From assembly GCF_014925405.1 (NCBI RefSeq), contig NZ_AQHJ01000026.1:96010-160009 (forward strand): a stretch of DNA of 64,000 nucleotides, written 5' to 3'. Below the pieces are notes generated by a model. That model searched no databases. It had not been told where the DNA came from and saw only the letters and a list, made by a program, of their open reading frames with translations. Position numbers and translations under genes: made by a program. Source of the DNA: Pseudoalteromonas ulvae UL12. GTDB lineage: Bacteria > Pseudomonadota > Gammaproteobacteria > Enterobacterales > Alteromonadaceae. Shown here piece after piece: positions 15,398 through 64,000 of the stretch; positions within the stretch are counted from its first letter, which is position 1, and the number at the start of each line of letters is the position of its first letter.

Positions 15398-15624
15398 ACA
15401 CCGATGCCAACCTCCCCCGTGATCACGCCCGGGAAATAAACAATTGATGAGTCTTGCATTTCATGGATGAAATGCAAGGTGAAGCTTGGCCATGGATGGC
15501 CTATCTTCACTGTTGACGTTCACATCAATTGATTATTTGCAGGATTTAGCGTGATGTCGGGGCGCTGAGAGTGTCCAGAGAGGGGGTCAGCGGCAGCCCC
15601 TCTTTGGTCGCCAACGCGACAACG
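15398..15624. repeat. Structured ~225-bp repeat, copy A
   Basis: Begins ACACCGATGCCAAC and ends near CGCCAACGCGACAA. Copy B at 15758 is about 90% identical by eye. It contains nested inverted repeats: outer AATTGATG/CATCAATT arms, an inner hairpin GCATTTCATGGATGAAATGC, a second stem GTGAAG/CTTCAC enclosing GGCCAT/ATGGCC, and a GC-rich hairpin near 15575-15604. No open frame is conserved between the copies. Confidence 0.8.
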
Positions 15625-15757: not shown

Positions 15758-15990
15758 ACACCGATGCCAACAATCTCCCCGTGATCACGCCCGTAAAATA
15801 AGCAATTGATGAGTCCGGCATTTCATGGATGAAATGCAAGGTGAAGCTTGGCCATGGATGGCCTATCTTCACCACTGACGCTCACATCAATTGATTATTT
15901 GCAGGATTTAGCGTGATGTCGGGGCGCGGAGAGTGTCCAGAGAGGGGGCAGCGCTAGCCCCTCTTTGGCTGTCGTCGCCAGCGCGACAAA
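15758..15990. repeat. Structured ~230-bp repeat, copy B
   Basis: Near-identical to copy A at 15398, with the same nested stems. In the GC-rich hairpin the loop sequences differ between copies while the AGAGGGG/CCCCTCT stem is kept. A short third fragment (CCGATGCCAA to TAAAACAGG) follows at 16125-16168. Confidence 0.8.
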
Positions 15991-24679: not shown

Positions 24680-24723
24680 ACTGCACGGCAAGGGTACTGA
24701 AGGTAATCGATGTAATCCACTGC

Positions 24724-24888
24724 CAGAAGCTCTCCACCATTAATTGGTGACAGTTCAGAGGATTCAGCCTCTAAAACCGAGAAAATAACACTGCGGTGTG
24801 CATTTTCCCTCGGCGAAGGTCCCCCTCGATACATAGTCACTAGACACCGCGTCCTCATATGTACTACCTGGCCTTCGCACCTCTTCTG
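24724..24888 (-). promoter_or_regulatory. Lysine riboswitch (L box) aptamer
   Basis: The minus strand carries the L-box landmarks in order: AGAGGTGCGAAGG, GAGGGGGACCTTCGCCGAGG, ACTGTCACC and GGTGGAGAGCTTCTGGCA. P1 is formed by CAGAAG (24888-24883) and CTTCTG (24729-24724). It lies 93 nt upstream of lysC, in the same direction. Confidence 0.95.
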
Positions 24889-24911
24889 AATTACCTGTCT
24901 AAAACAGGCAA

Positions 24912-38644: not shown

Positions 38645-38767
38645 TTTCTCGACCACAAAGTCCACATTAAAAATTGCTGCGAATTATACGTAAAACTGAG
38701 TGTAAAAGACAGTATTGTGGCAAAAGTATGAATAATGATTGAAAATCAAATAGAAGCTATTTAGGAG

Positions 38768-38843
38768 TGGTGGGTCATGATGGACTTGAACCATCGACCA
38801 ATGGATTAAAAGTCCACTGCTCTACCAACTGAGCTAATGACCC
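38768..38843 (-). tRNA. tRNA-Lys (UUU), array copy 1 (promoter-distal)
   Basis: Minus strand: 76 nt, GGGTCATTAGCTCAGTTGG start, anticodon loop CTTTTAA (anticodon TTT), GGTTCAAGTCC T arm and an encoded CCA. It is the last gene transcribed and faces nadA. Confidence 0.97.
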
Positions 38844-38912
38844 GCTCGATTGTTTCTATTTATATCCCGATGAAAGCGTTCGGCTGCTTAGTTAAATACG
38901 TAACTAAAAACG

Positions 38913-38988
38913 TGGTGGGTCATGATGGACTTGAACCATCGACCAATGGATTAAAAGTCCACTGCTCTACCAACTGAGCTAATGACCC
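38913..38988 (-). tRNA. tRNA-Lys (UUU), array copy 2
   Basis: Identical to copy 1, including the encoded CCA. The right-hand spacer has the CGATTG and CGGCTGC forms. Confidence 0.97.
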
Positions 38989-39057
38989 GCTCGATTGTTT
39001 CTATTTATATCCCGATGAAAGCGTTCGGCTGCTTAGTTAAATACGTAACTAAAAACG

Positions 39058-39133
39058 TGGTGGGTCATGATGGACTTGAACCATCGACCAATGGATTAAA
39101 AGTCCACTGCTCTACCAACTGAGCTAATGACCC
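39058..39133 (-). tRNA. tRNA-Lys (UUU), array copy 3
   Basis: Identical tRNA; spacer as in copy 2. Confidence 0.97.
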
Positions 39134-39202
39134 GCTCGATTGTTTCTATTTATATCCCGATGAAAGCGTTCGGCTGCTTAGTTAAATACGTAACTAAAAA
39201 CG

Positions 39203-39278
39203 TGGTGGGTCATGATGGACTTGAACCATCGACCAATGGATTAAAAGTCCACTGCTCTACCAACTGAGCTAATGACCC
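39203..39278 (-). tRNA. tRNA-Lys (UUU), array copy 4
   Basis: Identical tRNA; spacer as in copy 2. Confidence 0.97.
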
Positions 39279-39347
39279 GCTCGATTGTTTCTATTTATAT
39301 CCCGATGAAAGCGTTCGGCTGCTTAGTTAAATACGTAACTAAAAACG

Positions 39348-39423
39348 TGGTGGGTCATGATGGACTTGAACCATCGACCAATGGATTAAAAGTCCACTGC
39401 TCTACCAACTGAGCTAATGACCC
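39348..39423 (-). tRNA. tRNA-Lys (UUU), array copy 5
   Basis: Identical tRNA. The right-hand spacer has two private changes (TTTCTGTTTATAT and GTTAAGTACG). Confidence 0.97.
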
Positions 39424-39492
39424 GCTCGATTGTTTCTGTTTATATCCCGATGAAAGCGTTCGGCTGCTTAGTTAAGTACGTAACTAAAAACG

Positions 39493-39568
39493 TGGTGGGT
39501 CATGATGGACTTGAACCATCGACCAATGGATTAAAAGTCCACTGCTCTACCAACTGAGCTAATGACCC
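39493..39568 (-). tRNA. tRNA-Lys (UUU), array copy 6
   Basis: Identical tRNA. The spacer mixes the two types: CGACTG with CGGCTGC. Confidence 0.97.
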
Positions 39569-39637
39569 GCTCGACTGTTTCTATTTATATCCCGATGAAA
39601 GCGTTCGGCTGCTTAGTTAAATACGTAACTAAAAACG

Positions 39638-39713
39638 TGGTGGGTCATGATGGACTTGAACCATCGACCAATGGATTAAAAGTCCACTGCTCTACCAACT
39701 GAGCTAATGACCC
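39638..39713 (-). tRNA. tRNA-Lys (UUU), array copy 7
   Basis: Identical tRNA. The spacer mixes CGATTG with CGGTTGC. Confidence 0.97.
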
Positions 39714-39782
39714 GCTCGATTGTTTCTATTTATATCCCGATGAAAGCGTTCGGTTGCTTAGTTAAATACGTAACTAAAAACG

Positions 39783-39858
39783 TGGTGGGTCATGATGGAC
39801 TTGAACCATCGACCAATGGATTAAAAGTCCACTGCTCTACCAACTGAGCTAATGACCC
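39783..39858 (-). tRNA. tRNA-Lys (UUU), array copy 8
   Basis: Identical tRNA. The spacer is the most divergent (GCACTCGGTTTCTTAG). Confidence 0.97.
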
Positions 39859-39927
39859 GCTCGATTGTTTCTATTTATATCCCGATGAAAGCACTCGGTT
39901 TCTTAGTTAAATACGTAACTAAAAACG

Positions 39928-40003
39928 TGGTGGGTCATGATGGACTTGAACCATCGACCAATGGATTAAAAGTCCACTGCTCTACCAACTGAGCTAATGA
40001 CCC
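39928..40003 (-). tRNA. tRNA-Lys (UUU), array copy 9
   Basis: Identical tRNA; first of the uniform right-hand type (CGACTG, CGGTTGC). Confidence 0.97.
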
Positions 40004-40072
40004 GCTCGACTGTTTCTATTTATATCCCGATGAAAGCGTTCGGTTGCTTAGTTAAATACGTAACTAAAAACG

Positions 40073-40148
40073 TGGTGGGTCATGATGGACTTGAACCATC
40101 GACCAATGGATTAAAAGTCCACTGCTCTACCAACTGAGCTAATGACCC
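40073..40148 (-). tRNA. tRNA-Lys (UUU), array copy 10
   Basis: Identical tRNA and right-type spacer. Confidence 0.97.
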
Positions 40149-40217
40149 GCTCGACTGTTTCTATTTATATCCCGATGAAAGCGTTCGGTTGCTTAGTTAA
40201 ATACGTAACTAAAAACG

Positions 40218-40293
40218 TGGTGGGTCATGATGGACTTGAACCATCGACCAATGGATTAAAAGTCCACTGCTCTACCAACTGAGCTAATGACCC
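40218..40293 (-). tRNA. tRNA-Lys (UUU), array copy 11
   Basis: Identical tRNA and right-type spacer. Confidence 0.97.
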
Positions 40294-40362
40294 GCTCGAC
40301 TGTTTCTATTTATATCCCGATGAAAGCGTTCGGTTGCTTAGTTAAATACGTAACTAAAAACG

Positions 40363-40438
40363 TGGTGGGTCATGATGGACTTGAACCATCGACCAATGGA
40401 TTAAAAGTCCACTGCTCTACCAACTGAGCTAATGACCC
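40363..40438 (-). tRNA. tRNA-Lys (UUU), array copy 12
   Basis: Identical tRNA and right-type spacer. Confidence 0.97.
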
Positions 40439-40507
40439 GCTCGACTGTTTCTATTTATATCCCGATGAAAGCGTTCGGTTGCTTAGTTAAATACGTAACT
40501 AAAAACG

Positions 40508-40583
40508 TGGTGGGTCATGATGGACTTGAACCATCGACCAATGGATTAAAAGTCCACTGCTCTACCAACTGAGCTAATGACCC
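40508..40583 (-). tRNA. tRNA-Lys (UUU), array copy 13
   Basis: Identical tRNA and right-type spacer. Confidence 0.97.
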
Positions 40584-40652
40584 GCTCGACTGTTTCTATT
40601 TATATCCCGATGAAAGCGTTCGGTTGCTTAGTTAAATACGTAACTAAAAACG

Positions 40653-40728
40653 TGGTGGGTCATGATGGACTTGAACCATCGACCAATGGATTAAAAGTCC
40701 ACTGCTCTACCAACTGAGCTAATGACCC
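40653..40728 (-). tRNA. tRNA-Lys (UUU), array copy 14
   Basis: Identical tRNA and right-type spacer. Confidence 0.97.
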
Positions 40729-40797
40729 GCTCGACTGTTTCTATTTATATCCCGATGAAAGCGTTCGGTTGCTTAGTTAAATACGTAACTAAAAACG

Positions 40798-40873
40798 TGG
40801 TGGGTCATGATGGACTTGAACCATCGACCAATGGATTAAAAGTCCACTGCTCTACCAACTGAGCTAATGACCC
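40798..40873 (-). tRNA. tRNA-Lys (UUU), array copy 15
   Basis: Identical tRNA and right-type spacer. Confidence 0.97.
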
Positions 40874-40942
40874 GCTCGACTGTTTCTATTTATATCCCGA
40901 TGAAAGCGTTCGGTTGCTTAGTTAAATACGTAACTAAAAACG

Positions 40943-41018
40943 TGGTGGGTCATGATGGACTTGAACCATCGACCAATGGATTAAAAGTCCACTGCTCTAC
41001 CAACTGAGCTAATGACCC
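40943..41018 (-). tRNA. tRNA-Lys (UUU), array copy 16 (promoter-proximal)
   Basis: Identical tRNA. Its upstream flank keeps CGACTGTTTCTATTTA and then diverges into the promoter region. Confidence 0.97.
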
Positions 41019-41100
41019 GCTCGACTGTTTCTATTTAAATTTAAGTTTATTAAGCCTTAAACTGACACAGTCATTCGTTAGGTAACTAACTAGCGGCTGC

Positions 41101-58495: not shown

Positions 58496-58512
58496 TAGTG
58501 GTCAGACCTCTA
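58496..58512. promoter_or_regulatory. Candidate FadR operator upstream of fadE
   Basis: TAGTGGTCAGACCTCTA contains the TGGTCNGACC core of the FadR consensus AGCTGGTCCGACCTGTT without mismatch. It lies 16 bp before the fadE start, so binding of the acyl-CoA-responsive repressor would block transcription. Confidence 0.65.
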
Positions 58513-58527
58513 ATAAGGAAAATAAAC

Positions 58528-60975
58528 ATGACAATTATCTTGGTAGCCAGCTTGCTAACATTTTTAGCAATCGCCAGTTATCACCGTGCAAACTGGCATA
58601 CTTGTGTAGGTATAAGTATCGCGTTTATGTTGATAGGCAGTATCCTCGGTGCATTTTCAACGTTCAGTTGGTTGATATTTTTGGCAATTGTACTTCCGCT
58701 GTCTGTAACAAGTTTACGCCAGCAATACATTATAAAACCTATTTTTGCGGCATTTAAAAAAGTGACGCCAACCATGAGTGAAACAGAAAAATCTGCTATC
58801 GATGCCGGAACAACTTGGTGGGAAGCGGATTTATTTTGTGGTGATCCTGATTGGAATAAACTCCACAAATACCCAGTTCCTCGTTTGAACACTGAAGAGC
58901 AAGCGTTTATGGATGGTCCAGTTGAGACTGTGTGTAGCATGCTCGATGACTGGGAAGCGACTCATGAACTAACCGATTTACCACAAGATGTTTGGCAATA
59001 TTTAAAAGACAATAAGTTTTTTGCCATGATCATCAAAAAAGAATACGGTGGTCTTGAGTTTTCAGCATTTGCACAATCATGTGTGTTACAAAAGCTGACC
59101 AGTAAATCAACCCTACTTTCATCAATCGTCGGTGTTCCTAACTCGTTAGGTCCAGGTGAGCTATTACAGCACTATGGAACGAAAGAGCAAAAAGATCATT
59201 ACTTACCTCGCTTAGCCAGTGGACTAGAAATCCCTTGTTTTGCCCTTACCTCTCCTGAAGCAGGCTCTGACGCGAGTAGCATTCCTGACTATGGTGTGGT
59301 CTGCAAAGGAATGTGGCAAGGTGAAGAAGTACTCGGTTTGAATTTAACATGGAACAAGCGTTATATCACCCTTGCTCCTGTTGCGACAGTACTAGGCTTA
59401 GCGTTTAAACTGCGCGACCCTGATGGCTTGCTTGGAAACAATAAAGAGCCTGGGATCACGTGCGCCCTTATCCCTACGGATACGCCTGGAGTTGAGATTG
59501 GCCGTCGTCACTTCCCACTCAATGTGCCATTTCAAAATGGTCCAACCAAAGGTGAGAATGTATTTGTGCCTATCGACTACATCATTGGTGGTCCAAAAAT
59601 GGCCGGCCAAGGTTGGAGAATGTTGGTTGAATGTCTTTCTGTTGGTCGTGCGATCACTCTGCCATCTAATTCAGCCGGTGGTGTAAAAGCAATTGCACTA
59701 GCGAGTGGCTCGTATAGTCGTATTCGTCGCCAGTTCCGTTTACCGATTGGCCAAATGGAAGGTGTTGAAGAGTCTTTGGCTAAATTAGCCGGTTATGCGT
59801 ATAGCTCTGATGCCGCTGTGAGCATGTCAACTGGTGCTGTCGATTTAGGTGAGAAACCTTCGGTTGTCTCTGCAATTATTAAGTATCACTTGACTGAGCA
59901 AATGCGTGATTCAACTATGCATGCTATGGACATTCATGGTGGTAAAGGGATCATGCTTGGGCCAAACAATTATCTTGGTCGCGGTTATCAAGGTGCGCCT
60001 ATTGCAATTACTGTAGAAGGGGCCAATATCCTCACCCGTAACATGATCATTTATGGTCAAGGTGCAATCCGTTGCCATCCGTTTGTATTAGATGAGCTTG
60101 CATCATGTTCTATTGAAGATAAAGAAGAGGCCCTACGTGCCTTCGATACCGCATTAATGGGTCATATCGGTTACACCATCTCAAGCTTTGTCCGCACATT
60201 CTGGTTAGGATTAACCGGCGCTAAATTTGCAAAAACACCGTTTAAAGATGAAACCGCTGAGTTTTACCAAACAGCGTCTCGCTTTAGTGCTTCGTTAGCA
60301 CTTATGTCAGACATTTGTATGGCGGTATTTGGTGGCTCATTAAAACGTAAAGAGCGGATATCTGCTCGTTTAGGTGATTTACTCAGTTATCTTTATTTAG
60401 TCTCAGCAACACTTAAGCGTTATAACGATGAAGGTCGCAAAAAAGAAGACTTCGCACTGGTACAGTGGAGCTGTCAAGAGCATCTCTATCACTGCCAACG
60501 CGCATTGGCGGACTTAATTAATAACATGCCTTTTGCACCGTTACGTGCATTGTTAAAGGTTATTTTATTCCCTTGGGGCCGTCCCGTTCGCAAACCAACG
60601 GATACATTAGAACATAAAGTTGCACACTTATTACAAGTTCCAAGTGCAACACGTGATCGCCTAGCCAATCATATTTATCTCACTAATGAACCGAATAACT
60701 TAATCGGACGTCAGGAACAGACACTAAAGGATATTTTAGCTGTTGAGCCTATCTTTGATAAAATCTGCTTAGCTAAAGGTCAAAAACTGCCATTCTTTGC
60801 TTTAGATAAAGTCGCAGCAATGGGTCTTGAACTAAATGTGATCAATGAAAAAGAAGCTGACATGCTGATTAAGGCAGAAGTCGCTCGATTACAAGTCATT
60901 GATGTTGATGACTTTGATCCTGAAGATCTTAAAGCTGGTGCAGCACGCAGCAGTAAAAAGAGTAAAGCGGCTTAA
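58528..60975 (+). CDS. fadE: Acyl-CoA dehydrogenase FadE
   Basis: An 815-residue membrane-associated flavoenzyme doing the first step of fatty acid beta-oxidation; E. coli FadE is 814. Two N-terminal hydrophobic segments (~1-50) precede the dehydrogenase domain with [20 protein letters not shown] near residue 250, [16 protein letters not shown] near 280 and [20 protein letters not shown] near 475. A C-terminal DUF1974-type extension follows from about 535. The ATG at 58528 is chosen because AAGGA lies 8 nt before it. Probably controlled by the FadR-like site upstream. Confidence 0.95.
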
Positions 60976-62045
60976 ATAAATAAGCCTCCAACCAGATATA
61001 TTCCCCAAACCAGAGCGATGTGCTCTGGTTTTTTTTCTGCAAAATATAAACACATGATACTGATCCACCATAAAATGATGGCAAGATAACCCTGACCAAA
61101 CACAACAAATATAGCGATAGTCAGTAAAGTACAGCCAACGACACTACTCAATAAGCGCATGCGTTTAAATGGCCAAGCTTGATTAAGTGAAAGCAAAAAT
61201 AACTCGTAGTCTTTGGCTATCTTCTTGACCTCAATATGCAGTGTAAGTAATAACAGCAAGGTTAAAAAGCCAGAGAAATAACCCGCCAAATAAATCATAT
61301 CAGCTCGTTCAGTCGCCAACACACACATCGCAGAAAAAATCACCAGAATACACGCCATACGCCAAAGCAATATCTGATAATGATGAAGATAAAAGCTCAG
61401 CCATAGCCGTCTTTGATCTGTGACTGAAAAGCGACTTTGCCAACTAATAGGTGGTATAAACAGACATAACAGCGTGATAAAGCACCAACTCACCATAATA
61501 GCGAATAAGCTTAATTCAGACCAATACACACTCGATATCGCAGCGAGGAAACAGAAAATCACACTTTGTTGCATCCGATACAAAGATAAAAAACCAAGTA
61601 AGAGCTGTAAAACAATAAAGAGAATAAACGGGCTGTTTTGCTTAATTTGTGCGGCGTTCATCGACAATAATACAAACAGCGAACACCAAATAAATACATG
61701 TGACAGTAGTAAATTACGTGCATCAGCGAGCCATAACCACCAAGAGTTTTGGGCTAAACTGCGTTGAAAACTACGCTGTTTTGTATTTAATAGTGCATGA
61801 TTAAGCGCATAAAAATAAAGCGTTTGACCTGCCAAAAAACACCACGCCACCCATGCTTGGACGACCTCGCCTCCTTGCGCTTTAATGACTTTGCCTAAAC
61901 TCATAAAAATCAGCAAAACAATGCCAGGCAGTGCACTGGCCAACAGCATAAATAAAAAGCCTAACAATTGCTTTAATTGCTGCGATAACAGACTGATTTC
62001 ATATCGAAAGGCTTGGCTACGATAACGATAAAACGCGCTAAACAT
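60972..62045 (-). CDS. ABC-type transporter permease-like membrane protein
   Basis: A 357-residue inner-membrane protein with about 8-10 hydrophobic segments, including [23 protein letters not shown] and [16 protein letters not shown], and few charged regions between. It has no recognised family but overlaps the adjoining ATPase gene by 8 bp (ATGTTTAG), the usual arrangement for two-gene ABC exporters. The ATG at 62045 is preferred for this overlap. Its 3' end overlaps fadE by 4 bp and contains the fadE terminator in antisense. Substrate unknown. Confidence 0.7.
61007..61036 (+). terminator. fadE terminator embedded in the convergent permease gene
   Basis: AAACCAGAGC, loop GATGT, GCTCTGGTTTTTTTTC, 32 bp after the fadE stop. 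It lies inside the last codons of the permease gene on the opposite strand. Confidence 0.85.
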
Positions 62046-62622
62046 TATCAAGAGCCTGTAATTCAAATCCAATGCCTACAAAGGGGTCGGGTTCATGGCA
62101 AGTAATGATCACCTGACCTTTTCTCTTCGTCAGTAAGGTTAATAAAAATTGCAGGCTTGTTTCATCCAAGGCAGCACTAGGCTCATCTAACAAGGTTAAA
62201 GGGACATCACGAGCTAATGCTGTGATCAATTGTAATTTTTTTAAACTGCCCGAAGATAAATCGCCAACCTGAGTATTTAATTGAATATCAAAAGACAGCC
62301 CTGTAATAAGCGCTACAGGCCAAGGCAATTGCCAGCAGGCACACACCAGCTCTATGACTTGCTTTGCAGTCAGAAACTCAGGGAATTGAATTTTATCCGA
62401 CGCCAAAGCCACCTGTTGATTTGCATTTTTTAGTTGTTGGCCAAAAAGCTCAAGACTGCCAGATTGAGCCTTAATTAGCCCTGCAATAATGGCAAATAAA
62501 GTGGTCTTCCCTCGCCCATTGGCTGCAACTAAGCATGTCCTCGTCGATGCAAGACACACAGAATAGTTTTGAAACAGGGGTTTATTATTAAAATGATGAT
62601 TTAAACCTGTTATGGCTAACAT
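62038..62622 (-). CDS. ABC transporter ATP-binding protein
   Basis: A 194-residue nucleotide-binding subunit. Walker A is VAANGRGKTTLFAIIAGL near residue 35 (the second Gly-Ser position is altered to GRGKTT), the signature is LSSGSLKKLQLITALARD near 124 and Walker B LTLLDEPSAALDE near 145, followed by the switch His in IITCHEPDP. Small size and a partner of ~360 residues recall CcmA-like or simple export systems. First gene of the pair; no substrate clue. Confidence 0.85.
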   Translation of the reverse strand: MLAITGLNHHFNNKPLFQNYSVCLASTRTCLVAANGRGKTTLFAIIAGLIKAQSGSLELFGQQLKNANQQVALASDKIQFPEFLTAKQVIELVCACWQLPWPVALITGLSFDIQLNTQVGDLSSGSLKKLQLITALARDVPLTLLDEPSAALDETSLQFLLTLLTKRKGQVIITCHEPDPFVGIGFELQALDNV

Positions 62623-62746
62623 AATACACCGATTAAGTTTTTCGTCATGATATCAACCAATCAACGAAACCTACACCATTTCAATAATCATTGAACACTT
62701 TCAAGCACCCAAATGAGGACATTAACTGAATAGTTACGTCATGAAA
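62623..62746. other. Short spacer upstream of the ABC genes
   Basis: A 124-bp spacer holding the presumed promoter of the ABC pair. I see nothing else in it. Confidence 0.35.
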
Positions 62747-63354
62747 TTTTAGGATTTTAGGATTTTAGGATTTTAGGATTTTAGGATTTTAGGATTTTAG
62801 GATTTTAGGATTTTAGGATTTTAGGATTTTAGGATTTTAGGATTTTAGGATTTTAGGATTTTAGGATTTTAGGATTTTAGGATTTTAGGATTTTAGGATT
62901 TTAGGATTTTAGGATTTTAGGATTTTAGGATTTTAGGATTTTAGGATTTTAGGATTTTAGGATTTTAGGATTTTAGGATTTTAGGATTTTAGGATTTTAG
63001 GATTTTAGGATTTTAGGATTTTAGGATTTTAGGATTTTAGGATTTTAGGATTTTAGGATTTTAGGATTTTAGGATTTTAGGATTTTAGGATTTTAGGATT
63101 TTAGGATTTTAGGATTTTAGGATTTTAGGATTTTAGGATTTTAGGATTTTAGGATTTTAGGATTTTAGGATTTTAGGATTTTAGGATTTTAGGATTTTAG
63201 GATTTTAGGATTTTAGGATTTTAGGATTTTAGGATTTTAGGATTTTAGGATTTTAGGATTTTAGGATTTTAGGATTTTAGGATTTTAGGATTTTAGGATT
63301 TTAGGATTTTAGGATTTTAGGATTTTAGGATTTTAGGATTTTAGGATTTTAGGA
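62747..63354. repeat. 76 perfect tandem copies of TTTTAGGA (8 bp)
   Basis: The unit TTTTAGGA is repeated 76 times with no mismatch that I can find, 608 bp in all. Every reading frame in both directions has a stop, so it is not coding. It lies directly downstream of the tRNA-Asp array and upstream of the ABC genes. Confidence 0.97.
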
Positions 63355-63381
63355 TAAATCTGAGAGACTTGATAAATCAAG

Positions 63382-63458
63382 TGGCGGAGTGGACGGGACT
63401 CGAACCCGCGACCCCCGGCGTGACAGGCCGGTATTCTAACCAACTGAACTACCACTCC
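63382..63458 (-). tRNA. tRNA-Asp (GUC), array copy 1 (promoter-distal)
   Basis: Minus strand: 77 nt starting GGAGTGGTAGTTCAGTTGG, anticodon loop CTGTCAC (GTC), GGTTCGAGTCC T arm and an encoded CCA. The trailer contains ACTTGAT/ATCAAGT, which can form a hairpin or pair with ATCAAG in the leader. Confidence 0.96.
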
Positions 63459-63491
63459 GCAGTGGTATATAACTTGATGCTTAATATCTGT

Positions 63492-63568
63492 TGGCGGAGT
63501 GGACGGGACTCGAACCCGCGACCCCCGGCGTGACAGGCCGGTATTCTAACCAACTGAACTACCACTCC
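63492..63568 (-). tRNA. tRNA-Asp (GUC), array copy 2
   Basis: Same tRNA and encoded CCA. Flanking arms TTAATATCT (leader) and AGATATTAA (trailer) are complementary over 9 bp. Confidence 0.96.
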
Positions 63569-63595
63569 GCAGAGATATTAATGCTATTTACTTGT

Positions 63596-63672
63596 TGGCG
63601 GAGTGGACGGGACTCGAACCCGCGACCCCCGGCGTGACAGGCCGGTATTCTAACCAACTGAACTACCACTCC
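63596..63672 (-). tRNA. tRNA-Asp (GUC), array copy 3
   Basis: Same tRNA. Flanking arms ATTTACTT and AAGTAAAT are complementary over 8 bp, with a sequence different from the other copies. Confidence 0.96.
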
Positions 63673-63703
63673 GCTGTAAGTAAATCTGTTGAATATTGCA
63701 TGT

Positions 63704-63780
63704 TGGCGGAGTGGACGGGACTCGAACCCGCGACCCCCGGCGTGACAGGCCGGTATTCTAACCAACTGAACTACCACTCC
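63704..63780 (-). tRNA. tRNA-Asp (GUC), array copy 4
   Basis: Same tRNA. The leader GTTGAATAACGCAT pairs with the trailer ATGCAATATTCAAC except at two central positions. Confidence 0.96.
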
Positions 63781-63818
63781 GCATAATGCGTTATTCAACT
63801 TATTAAATTATATTCTGT

Positions 63819-63895
63819 TGGCGGAGTGGACGGGACTCGAACCCGCGACCCCCGGCGTGACAGGCCGGTATTCTAACCAACTGAACTACCACTCC
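63819..63895 (-). tRNA. tRNA-Asp (GUC), array copy 5
   Basis: Same tRNA. Flanking arms TTATATTC and GAATATAA are complementary over 8 bp. Confidence 0.96.
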
Positions 63896-63942
63896 ACAAA
63901 GGAATATAACTCAATAAAGTGCCTTTCGGCGATGTAAGTATT

Positions 63943-64000
63943 TGGCGGAGTGGACGGGACTCGAACCCGCGACCCCCGGCGTGACAGGCCGGTATTCTAA
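63943..64000 (-). tRNA. tRNA-Asp (GUC), array copy 6, cut by the window edge
   Basis: The 3' part of the same tRNA, with encoded CCA, T arm and anticodon region; the 5' part lies beyond the window. Confidence 0.9.

Follow-up and report, generated by a model that had tools for sequence, protein, structure and literature searches.

Several described systems share a feature with the tandem tRNA arrays treated here. In the precursors of 16S and 23S rRNA, complementary leader and trailer sequences close a stable RNA domain within a polycistronic transcript (available text of PMC10250234). Pre-tRNAs in which the leader pairs with the trailer or with the RCCA end are likewise comparable, as leader and 3' sequence together prolong the acceptor stem. 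A tRNA-like leader-trailer interaction has reportedly been found in MALAT1, to judge from the title of one paper. Pairing between leader and RCCA inhibits RNase P in E. coli (accessible part of PMC9433436), and the leaders of Tetrahymena are said to have evolved against leader/trailer pairing (accessible part of PMC9705548). Tandem tRNAs are known from E. coli polycistronic operons such as valU, lysT, valVW, metT, and argQZYV, in which RNase E and RNase P carry out the processing (PMC11143913, in the portion available); RNase P specificity is the subject of a related paper (PMC10731613, also available in part). Finally, tandem identical Spinach aptamers fold less well, and inter-aptamer misfolding has been suggested (available sections of PMC4661537), a case in which repeated structured RNA folds worse within one transcript.

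The arrays described below differ from these systems in several respects. Unlike the pre-rRNA stalks of RNase III processing, their leader-trailer helices, here called clamps, flank tRNAs, measure 6-16 bp, and are different for each identical copy. Unlike leader/RCCA pairing, the helix begins past the CCA, is private to one copy, and is tied to tandem identity. The tandem Spinach arrays are synthetic, whereas in the natural tRNA arrays most copies have a closing helix of their own. A search covering mainly freely accessible papers turned up no earlier account of tandem tRNA arrays whose copies each have their own leader-trailer helix, which is weak evidence of novelty.

The window, the whole 64,000-nucleotide stretch of DNA that was analyzed, corresponds to positions 96010-160009 of contig C25 in the 4.74 Mb genome of Pseudoalteromonas ulvae UL12, where tRNA genes are abundant (157 matches). 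According to ARAGORN, the minus strand carries five complete tRNA-Asp(GUC) genes at 63382-63895; they are letter-identical to one another, in agreement with the earlier note, which had called them essentially identical. A sixth copy is incomplete and reaches the end of both window and contig, and another copy opens the next contig, C26. Contig edges also fall within or near tRNA arrays elsewhere (C25 end/C26 start, C32 end/C33 start, C29 end, C21 end); true copy numbers may therefore be higher. The spacers of the window array are 27-38 nt long; in the RNA sense, each begins with the trailer of the copy before it and ends with the leader of the copy after it. A copy-specific leader-trailer helix of 8-16 bp lies just outside the acceptor stem in four of the five complete copies and in the copy on C26. 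The features of the array, in window coordinates, are:

63382..63458, minus strand: tRNA-Asp(GUC), the 3'-most and last transcribed copy, without a tight clamp (ARAGORN and stem score)
63368..63381, minus strand: trailer of copy 63382, with a self-complementary CUUGA...UCAAG hairpin; its first 6 nt also match the leader at 63473-63478 (sequence and fold)
63473..63478, minus strand: leader strand AUCAAG, weak distant pairing of copy 63382, beyond the tight geometry (sequence)
63492..63568, minus strand: tRNA-Asp(GUC) (ARAGORN)
63573..63581, minus strand: clamp 5' strand (leader) of copy 63492, UUAAUAUCU (sequence, score, fold)
63481..63489, minus strand: clamp 3' strand (trailer) of copy 63492, AGAUAUUAA (sequence, score, fold)
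63596..63672, minus strand: tRNA-Asp(GUC) (ARAGORN)
63678..63685, minus strand: clamp 5' strand of copy 63596, AUUUACUU (sequence, score, fold)
63586..63593, minus strand: clamp 3' strand of copy 63596, AAGUAAAU (sequence, score, fold)
63704..63780, minus strand: tRNA-Asp(GUC) (ARAGORN)
63786..63799, minus strand: clamp 5' strand of copy 63704, GUUGAAUA-ac-GCAU (sequence, score, fold)
63688..63701, minus strand: clamp 3' strand of copy 63704, AUGC-aa-UAUUCAAC (sequence, score, fold)
63819..63895, minus strand: tRNA-Asp(GUC), first complete copy of the window (ARAGORN)
63902..63917, minus strand: clamp 5' strand of copy 63819, UUAUUGAGUUAUAUUC, 16 bp including two G.U pairs (sequence, score, fold)
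63800..63815, minus strand: clamp 3' strand of copy 63819, GAAUAUAAUUUAAUAA (sequence, score, fold)
63943..64000, minus strand: tRNA-Asp(GUC) cut by the window and contig end, its leader outside the contig (sequence)

The complementary pairs that had been pointed out beforehand are all present: TTAATATCT/AGATATTAA, ATTTACTT/AAGTAAAT, GTTGAATA-(2)-GCAT with its complement, and TTATATTC/GAATATAA. In the minimum-energy fold of the five-copy precursor, four copies form closed tRNA-plus-clamp domains, the last copy is non-native, and the TTATATTC/GAATATAA pair grows to 16 bp with two G.U pairs. The z-score of this fold, -7.05, comes mostly from the tRNAs themselves and is therefore of no use as evidence for the clamps. 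We scored stems in a tight geometry (within 9 nt of +1 and 4 nt of the CCA), with a cut-off of 6 throughout except in the array tally, where it was 5. The four clamped window copies and the C26 copy score 7-13, while all 30 mismatched leader/trailer pairs of the six copies (C26 included) score at most 4.5, and the true assignment is the single best among 720 permutations. The claim that every complete copy is flanked by complementary leader and trailer thus stands for four of the five; the exception is copy 63382-63458 (score 3.5), the last transcribed, which had been offered as an example (copy 1) for its ATCAAG/CTTGAT pairing. This is its only pairing, and we treat the copy as unclamped because in the same geometry the pairing lies 14 nt off on the leader side and the trailer could form a hairpin of its own.

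The pattern extends well beyond the window. A scan of contigs for tandem tRNA-Asp genes yielded at least 119 loci, which are a sample; among the matches listed, 184 of 346 distinct tRNA-Asp flank pairs (53%) reach a stem score of 6, compared with 49 of 1163 (4.2%) when trailers are swapped within arrays. For 365 Asp pairs among the matches listed, the RNAduplex energy is -8.45 kcal/mol for own partners and -5.53 kcal/mol for within-array swaps (p 2e-31). When no geometry limit is imposed, 173 of 227 stems of at least 7 bp, among the matches listed, start 0-3 nt past the CCA; the tight geometry was chosen after this unrestricted Asp result, so it is post hoc for the Asp loci, and was then applied unchanged to Val, Asn, E. 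coli, and the other genomes. A geometry-limited score was adopted because RNAduplex energies over 30-nt flanks are noisy (12 of 108 tRNAs of the window's own genome at p<0.05). Before counting, we dropped flank pairs that were letter-identical at the junctions, flanks containing N, and flanks below a minimum length that varied from 8 to 14 nt between analyses, and kinship in the counts was handled solely by this removal of identical junctions, with no further phylogenetic correction. The score misses clamps with a trailer gap above 4 nt, such as that of copy 3 in the P. luteoviolacea arrays, which is visible yet counted as unclamped in the array tally.

By genus, with labels grouped by hand from record titles, clamped own pairs among the matches listed number 81 of 118 in Pseudoalteromonas, 27 of 35 in Alteromonas, 11 of 18 in Thalassotalea, 15 of 30 in the Idiomarina group, and 5 of 14 in Massilia; the signal in Rheinheimera is weak (own 8/33, swapped 8/96). 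A second sample from the order, which partly overlaps the Asp scan (at least 4 loci common to both), gives 54/109 for own and 17/393 for swapped pairs. Arrays of two further tRNA species in the window's genus behave similarly, with 53/90 (59%) for tRNA-Asn and 41/73 (56%) for tRNA-Val(UAC), against 6-7% of swaps. Smaller hetero groups of this genus lie between 0/7 (Gly) and 3/6 (Tyr) or 4/9 (Ala). Among the remaining tRNAs fetched from the window's genome, 22 of 92 distinct pairs have such a stem, compared with 5% swapped. Stems were found in 3 of 34 E. coli K-12 units from 13 regions (16 of 50 ARAGORN units having been dropped for flanks below 10 nt), compared with 4.4% swapped; these operons thus differ from the present arrays in showing no clear enrichment. 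No stem scoring 6 was found in the tRNA-Glu(UUC) arrays of L015, L223, and L241, which have spacers of ~90-160 nt.

A precursor helix that extends the acceptor stem, with its sequence changed and its pairing kept, as the earlier note had proposed, has good support in Pseudoalteromonas, Alteromonas, and related genera and in three tRNA species. Chance pairing of AT-rich spacers, as an explanation of the whole, has a negligible probability in our estimation: stems of such score occur in about 4-7% of swapped pairs, but true pairs reach 53-59%, and the true assignment in the window is the best of 720 permutations. It was rejected by the within-array swaps, the permutation, and the shuffles.

Clamps are commonly 6-12 bp long, start past the CCA, leave a small internal loop next to the acceptor stem, and have a G+C content of 26%. 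Among the matches listed, Asp stems range from 6 to 16 bp, with 104 of 184 at 7-9 bp and 8 bp the commonest length (40/184). Complementary flanks enclose one mature RNA and the leader pairs 3' of position 72; the long, near-continuous helix of the pre-rRNA type is not seen at these lengths. Asp leaders end in GC in 148 of 346 cases among the matches listed and could pair with G73 C74; by the accessible part of PMC9433436, a GC at -2/-1 might slow RNase P.

Two kinds of evidence bear on the level at which the pairing is maintained. In the Asp clamps among the matches listed, G.U pairs outnumber A.C oppositions 45 to 16, while swapped pairs contain 24 and 32, respectively (Fisher p 0.0008); the homo arrays of the genus tRNA survey add 23 and 9, for 68 and 25 when pooled with Asp. 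This bias is not built in, because the stem score weighs G.U and A.C alike. Where both sides have changed between nearest relatives, among the matches listed, 34 positions are still paired and 13 broken, a comparison in which some pairs are reciprocal and counted twice (halved, p 0.0007 against random pairing). One-sided changes, again among the matches listed, break the pairing in 128 cases and keep it in 56, and the helix therefore tolerates mismatches. The excess of G.U over A.C and the two-sided changes that mostly remain paired imply that selection acts on the RNA, and on these comparative grounds we consider the leader-trailer helix almost certainly an RNA-level, selected feature. A register-free swap test was used instead of column-wise covariation for Asn because the register of the helix slides between clades.

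The co-occurrence of tandem copies and inverted repeats could also be read as a set of DNA-level palindromes devoid of RNA function, be they terminal inverted repeats, cruciform-prone sites, or remnants of the hairpin-mediated duplication that the earlier note had raised as an alternative. We regard this as very improbable. The strand-symmetric complementarity of a DNA inverted repeat or mobile-element end (G.U equal to A.C) is not observed (68 and 25 pooled), a G.U excess being unexpected for a DNA palindrome, and relatives show compensatory changes. Moreover, of the likeliest new duplicates, internal copies between near-identical spacers, 2 of 14 are clamped (2 of 7 for Asp, Val, and Asn only), compared with 186 of 280 other copies. 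Hairpin-mediated duplication was rejected on this last comparison together with the preference for G.U over A.C.

Duplication of a gene with one spacer places a copy between two equal spacers, and such a copy is therefore clamped only if the spacer is self-complementary; the rarity of clamps between near-identical spacers accordingly implies that duplication as such leaves a copy unclamped. Diverged arrays have clamps again, and the homogenized tRNA-Pro, tRNA-Arg, and inner initiator tRNA-Met arrays of the window's genome are without them. The window also contains sixteen tandem tRNA-Lys genes (38767-41037) with a period of 145 bp, 99% alike and with near-identical spacers. Fifteen of these sixteen copies have a leader-trailer score of 6.5, and the fold model predicts the array to be exchanged; tRNA-Asn of the same genome scores 8 in seven copies. 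In both cases the pairing is ambiguous, because equal spacers make the same pairing a spacer hairpin. Negative design was not detected: cross-pairing within arrays (4.2% at score 6, 10.4% at score 5) is not clearly rarer than between genera (4.0% and 11.6%, respectively), and drift therefore suffices to account for the differences among clamps.

The presence of a clamp varies with what lies downstream. In the DISCRIMINATING test, for which Asp, Val, and Asn arrays were deliberately sought and the window's tRNA-Lys array was left out, clamps occur in 151 of 223 copies (68%) whose next tRNA has the same acceptor stem, compared with 25 of 97 (26%) with a different one; the figures are 22 of 112 without a downstream neighbor and 15 of 85 for isolated genes. 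With spacers of 14-45 nt only, they are 139/198 and 20/72 for same and different acceptors. Three genomes picked for their tRNA-Asp arrays, counted over the fetched tRNA regions (a subset of their tRNAs), give 30/53 for same, 15/64 for different, 5/42 for none downstream, and 8/64 for isolated genes (same against different, p 0.0003). The dependence on an identical downstream neighbor that marks an anti-exchange clamp is thus found. Clamps are also commoner at shorter spacers (45/54 at 25 nt or less, 115/165 at 26-45 nt, 26/61 at 46-125 nt). By position, at the cut-off of 6 and with first and last labels possibly wrong where a locus ends within an array, clamped copies number 74/103 first, 119/176 internal, and 20/104 last for Asp (among the matches listed), and 13/25, 44/50, and 6/31 for Asn; the Val copies (10/14, 22/47, and 10/15) go against a last-copy rule. 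Of 37 arrays, 8 are clamped throughout at the cut-off of 5 and 17 lack a single clamp (25 in all), which in 11 of these 17 is that of the last copy. Comparison of these genomes thus shows that the clamps are real and specific to each copy, that compensatory change preserves them at the RNA level, and that they are concentrated upstream of same-acceptor neighbors.

A processing stalk, presenting the pre-tRNA to RNase III within the helix or to RNase E at a single-stranded junction, with its sequence left to drift, might account for this pattern. It would share its topology with the pre-16S and pre-23S helices (PMC10250234, in the text available) and would agree with the clamps beside different tRNAs (25/97), the G+C content of 26%, the mostly clampless Asp and Asn copies at the 3' end of arrays, where no further copy follows, and the lack of visible within-array negative design. 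A role in processing should, however, ignore the identity of the downstream tRNA, yet the counts of 151/223 and 25/97 differ strongly, also at spacers of 14-45 nt. RNase III requires roughly two helical turns, and stems of 6-16 bp interrupted by an internal loop are small for it. We consider the stalk unlikely. Less probable still is a general protective helix, which would shield leader and trailer from exonucleases or mispairing in any polycistronic tRNA transcript. The above-chance pairing in hetero clusters (25/97) and in the other tRNAs of the window's genome (22/92, compared with 5%) is what such a helix would predict, but hetero clusters, isolated genes, and last copies are clamped far less despite an equal need, and the E. 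coli operons sampled lack a clear enrichment (3/34, compared with 4.4% swapped).

Folding models suggest another role. Arrays were tested if they had at least four copies and distinct spacers of 14-50 nt; 24 of 31 arrays passed in the first test, 24 of 30 in the four-copy test, and 20 of 30 in the energy-set test, while clamp removal was modeled in 8 of 30 arrays and a length series in 4. A lone tRNA-Asp has a native fraction of 0.96-0.99 in the model. In four identical copies with random spacers (24 arrays), this fraction falls to 0.03, and the 3' acceptor strand is paired with the next copy at 0.64. Four copies with identical clamps reach 0.07, and with distinct clamps 0.99 (24 arrays). Natural arrays reach 0.73, compared with 0.29 for natural spacers in the wrong order (24 arrays); with up to five copies, natural spacers give 0.72, permuted trailers 0.10, and shuffled spacers 0.07, the natural value being higher in 24 of 24. 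The mean ordering is unchanged under the Turner 1999, Andronescu 2007, and Turner 2004 parameters (20 arrays), and under these three energy sets natural arrays do better than either shuffled spacers or the wrong order, in 19-20 of 20 cases each. A clamp of 6 bp yields 0.58 and one of 8 bp is sufficient (0.99). Removing one clamp lowers that copy to 0.54-0.81, with the least loss at both array ends, and removing two lowers those two copies to about 0.1.

On the strength of these models, we lean toward the view that the clamps lock each pre-tRNA to itself, against exchange between identical neighbors. Where a clamp is missing, the 3' acceptor strand of copy i would reach across the spacer to pair with the 5' strand of copy i+1, which is identical to that of copy i, and a private leader-trailer helix would hold each copy in its own fold. 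One clamp common to all copies would be useless because each spacer would then form its own hairpin; the clamps would thus have to differ, and one unclamped copy per array would be tolerated. With the copies correctly folded, RNase E and RNase P would be able to separate and mature them, and maturation would remove the clamp along with leader and trailer. A more specific version, an 'orthogonal barcode', starts from the expectation that identical tRNAs in tandem would exchange acceptor strands; selection would therefore have equipped almost every copy with a closing helix of its own, evolved anew after each duplication. We hold this version tentatively, at close to an even chance. Self-locking of each copy accounts better for the pattern than does the suggestion, made in the earlier note, that the helix is probably for processing, because the clamp depends on the acceptor stem of the next tRNA and, in the folding model, works only when copies differ.

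Several observations temper this reading. Copies with different neighbors are clamped in 26% of cases, above the ~5% expected by chance, which speaks against an anti-exchange role, as do the missing negative design within arrays, the mostly clamped last Val copies (10/15), the one-sided changes that break pairing, and the weak signal in Rheinheimera. The model predicts a non-native fold (<0.5) for seven of eight tandem arrays of E. coli K-12, with Leu already so as a single copy, although unclamped tandem tRNA arrays work in this species; exchange is therefore not lethal, and the hazard is at most a cost. Unclamped homo arrays predicted to be exchanged also occur in clamp-bearing genomes (Pro and Arg in that of the window; Gly, Arg, and Ser in G002). 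Tertiary structure, modification, proteins, and co-transcriptional order, all of which are expected to favor the native fold, have no place in the models, which fail even for some single tRNAs, such as tRNA-Val of L015 (0.06). Upon clamp loss in the model, the last copy retains 0.78 and the first 0.81; the last copy is no more tolerant, and the model therefore does not explain why it is without a clamp. A terminator or the end of transcription may lie behind the absence. A consensus scan of 62600-64000 for intrinsic terminators (a G+C-rich hairpin followed by a T run) found none between the tRNA-Asp copies.

If the clamps do lock each copy to itself, a run of identical structured RNAs could be transcribed together with each still folding as itself, and the growth of arrays would be constrained, since duplication would leave a copy with no matching clamp, which would have to be rebuilt. 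The rule that distinct helices work and identical ones fail would hold equally for engineered arrays, whether of tRNAs, aptamers, or guide RNAs. The binding of multimeric pre-tRNAs by RNase P is termed an open question in a 2024 review (PMC11143913, portion available), and a folding layer that separates identical neighbors would bear on it.

Immediately downstream of the tRNA-Asp array, at 62746-63355, lies a 610 bp perfect ATTTTAGG repeat of 76 units; an exact search of the genome with four units of ATTTTAGG returned this region as the sole match. Beyond it, a DUF6136 protein adjoining an ABC transporter ATP-binding protein is encoded at 60972-62622 (minus strand), and an acyl-CoA dehydrogenase at 58498-60975. 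Other RNA elements of the window include a lysine riboswitch at 24719-24893 (minus strand) and two matches to the TwoAYGGAY RNA motif (Rfam RF01731) at 15420-15552 and 15786-15909 (plus strand).
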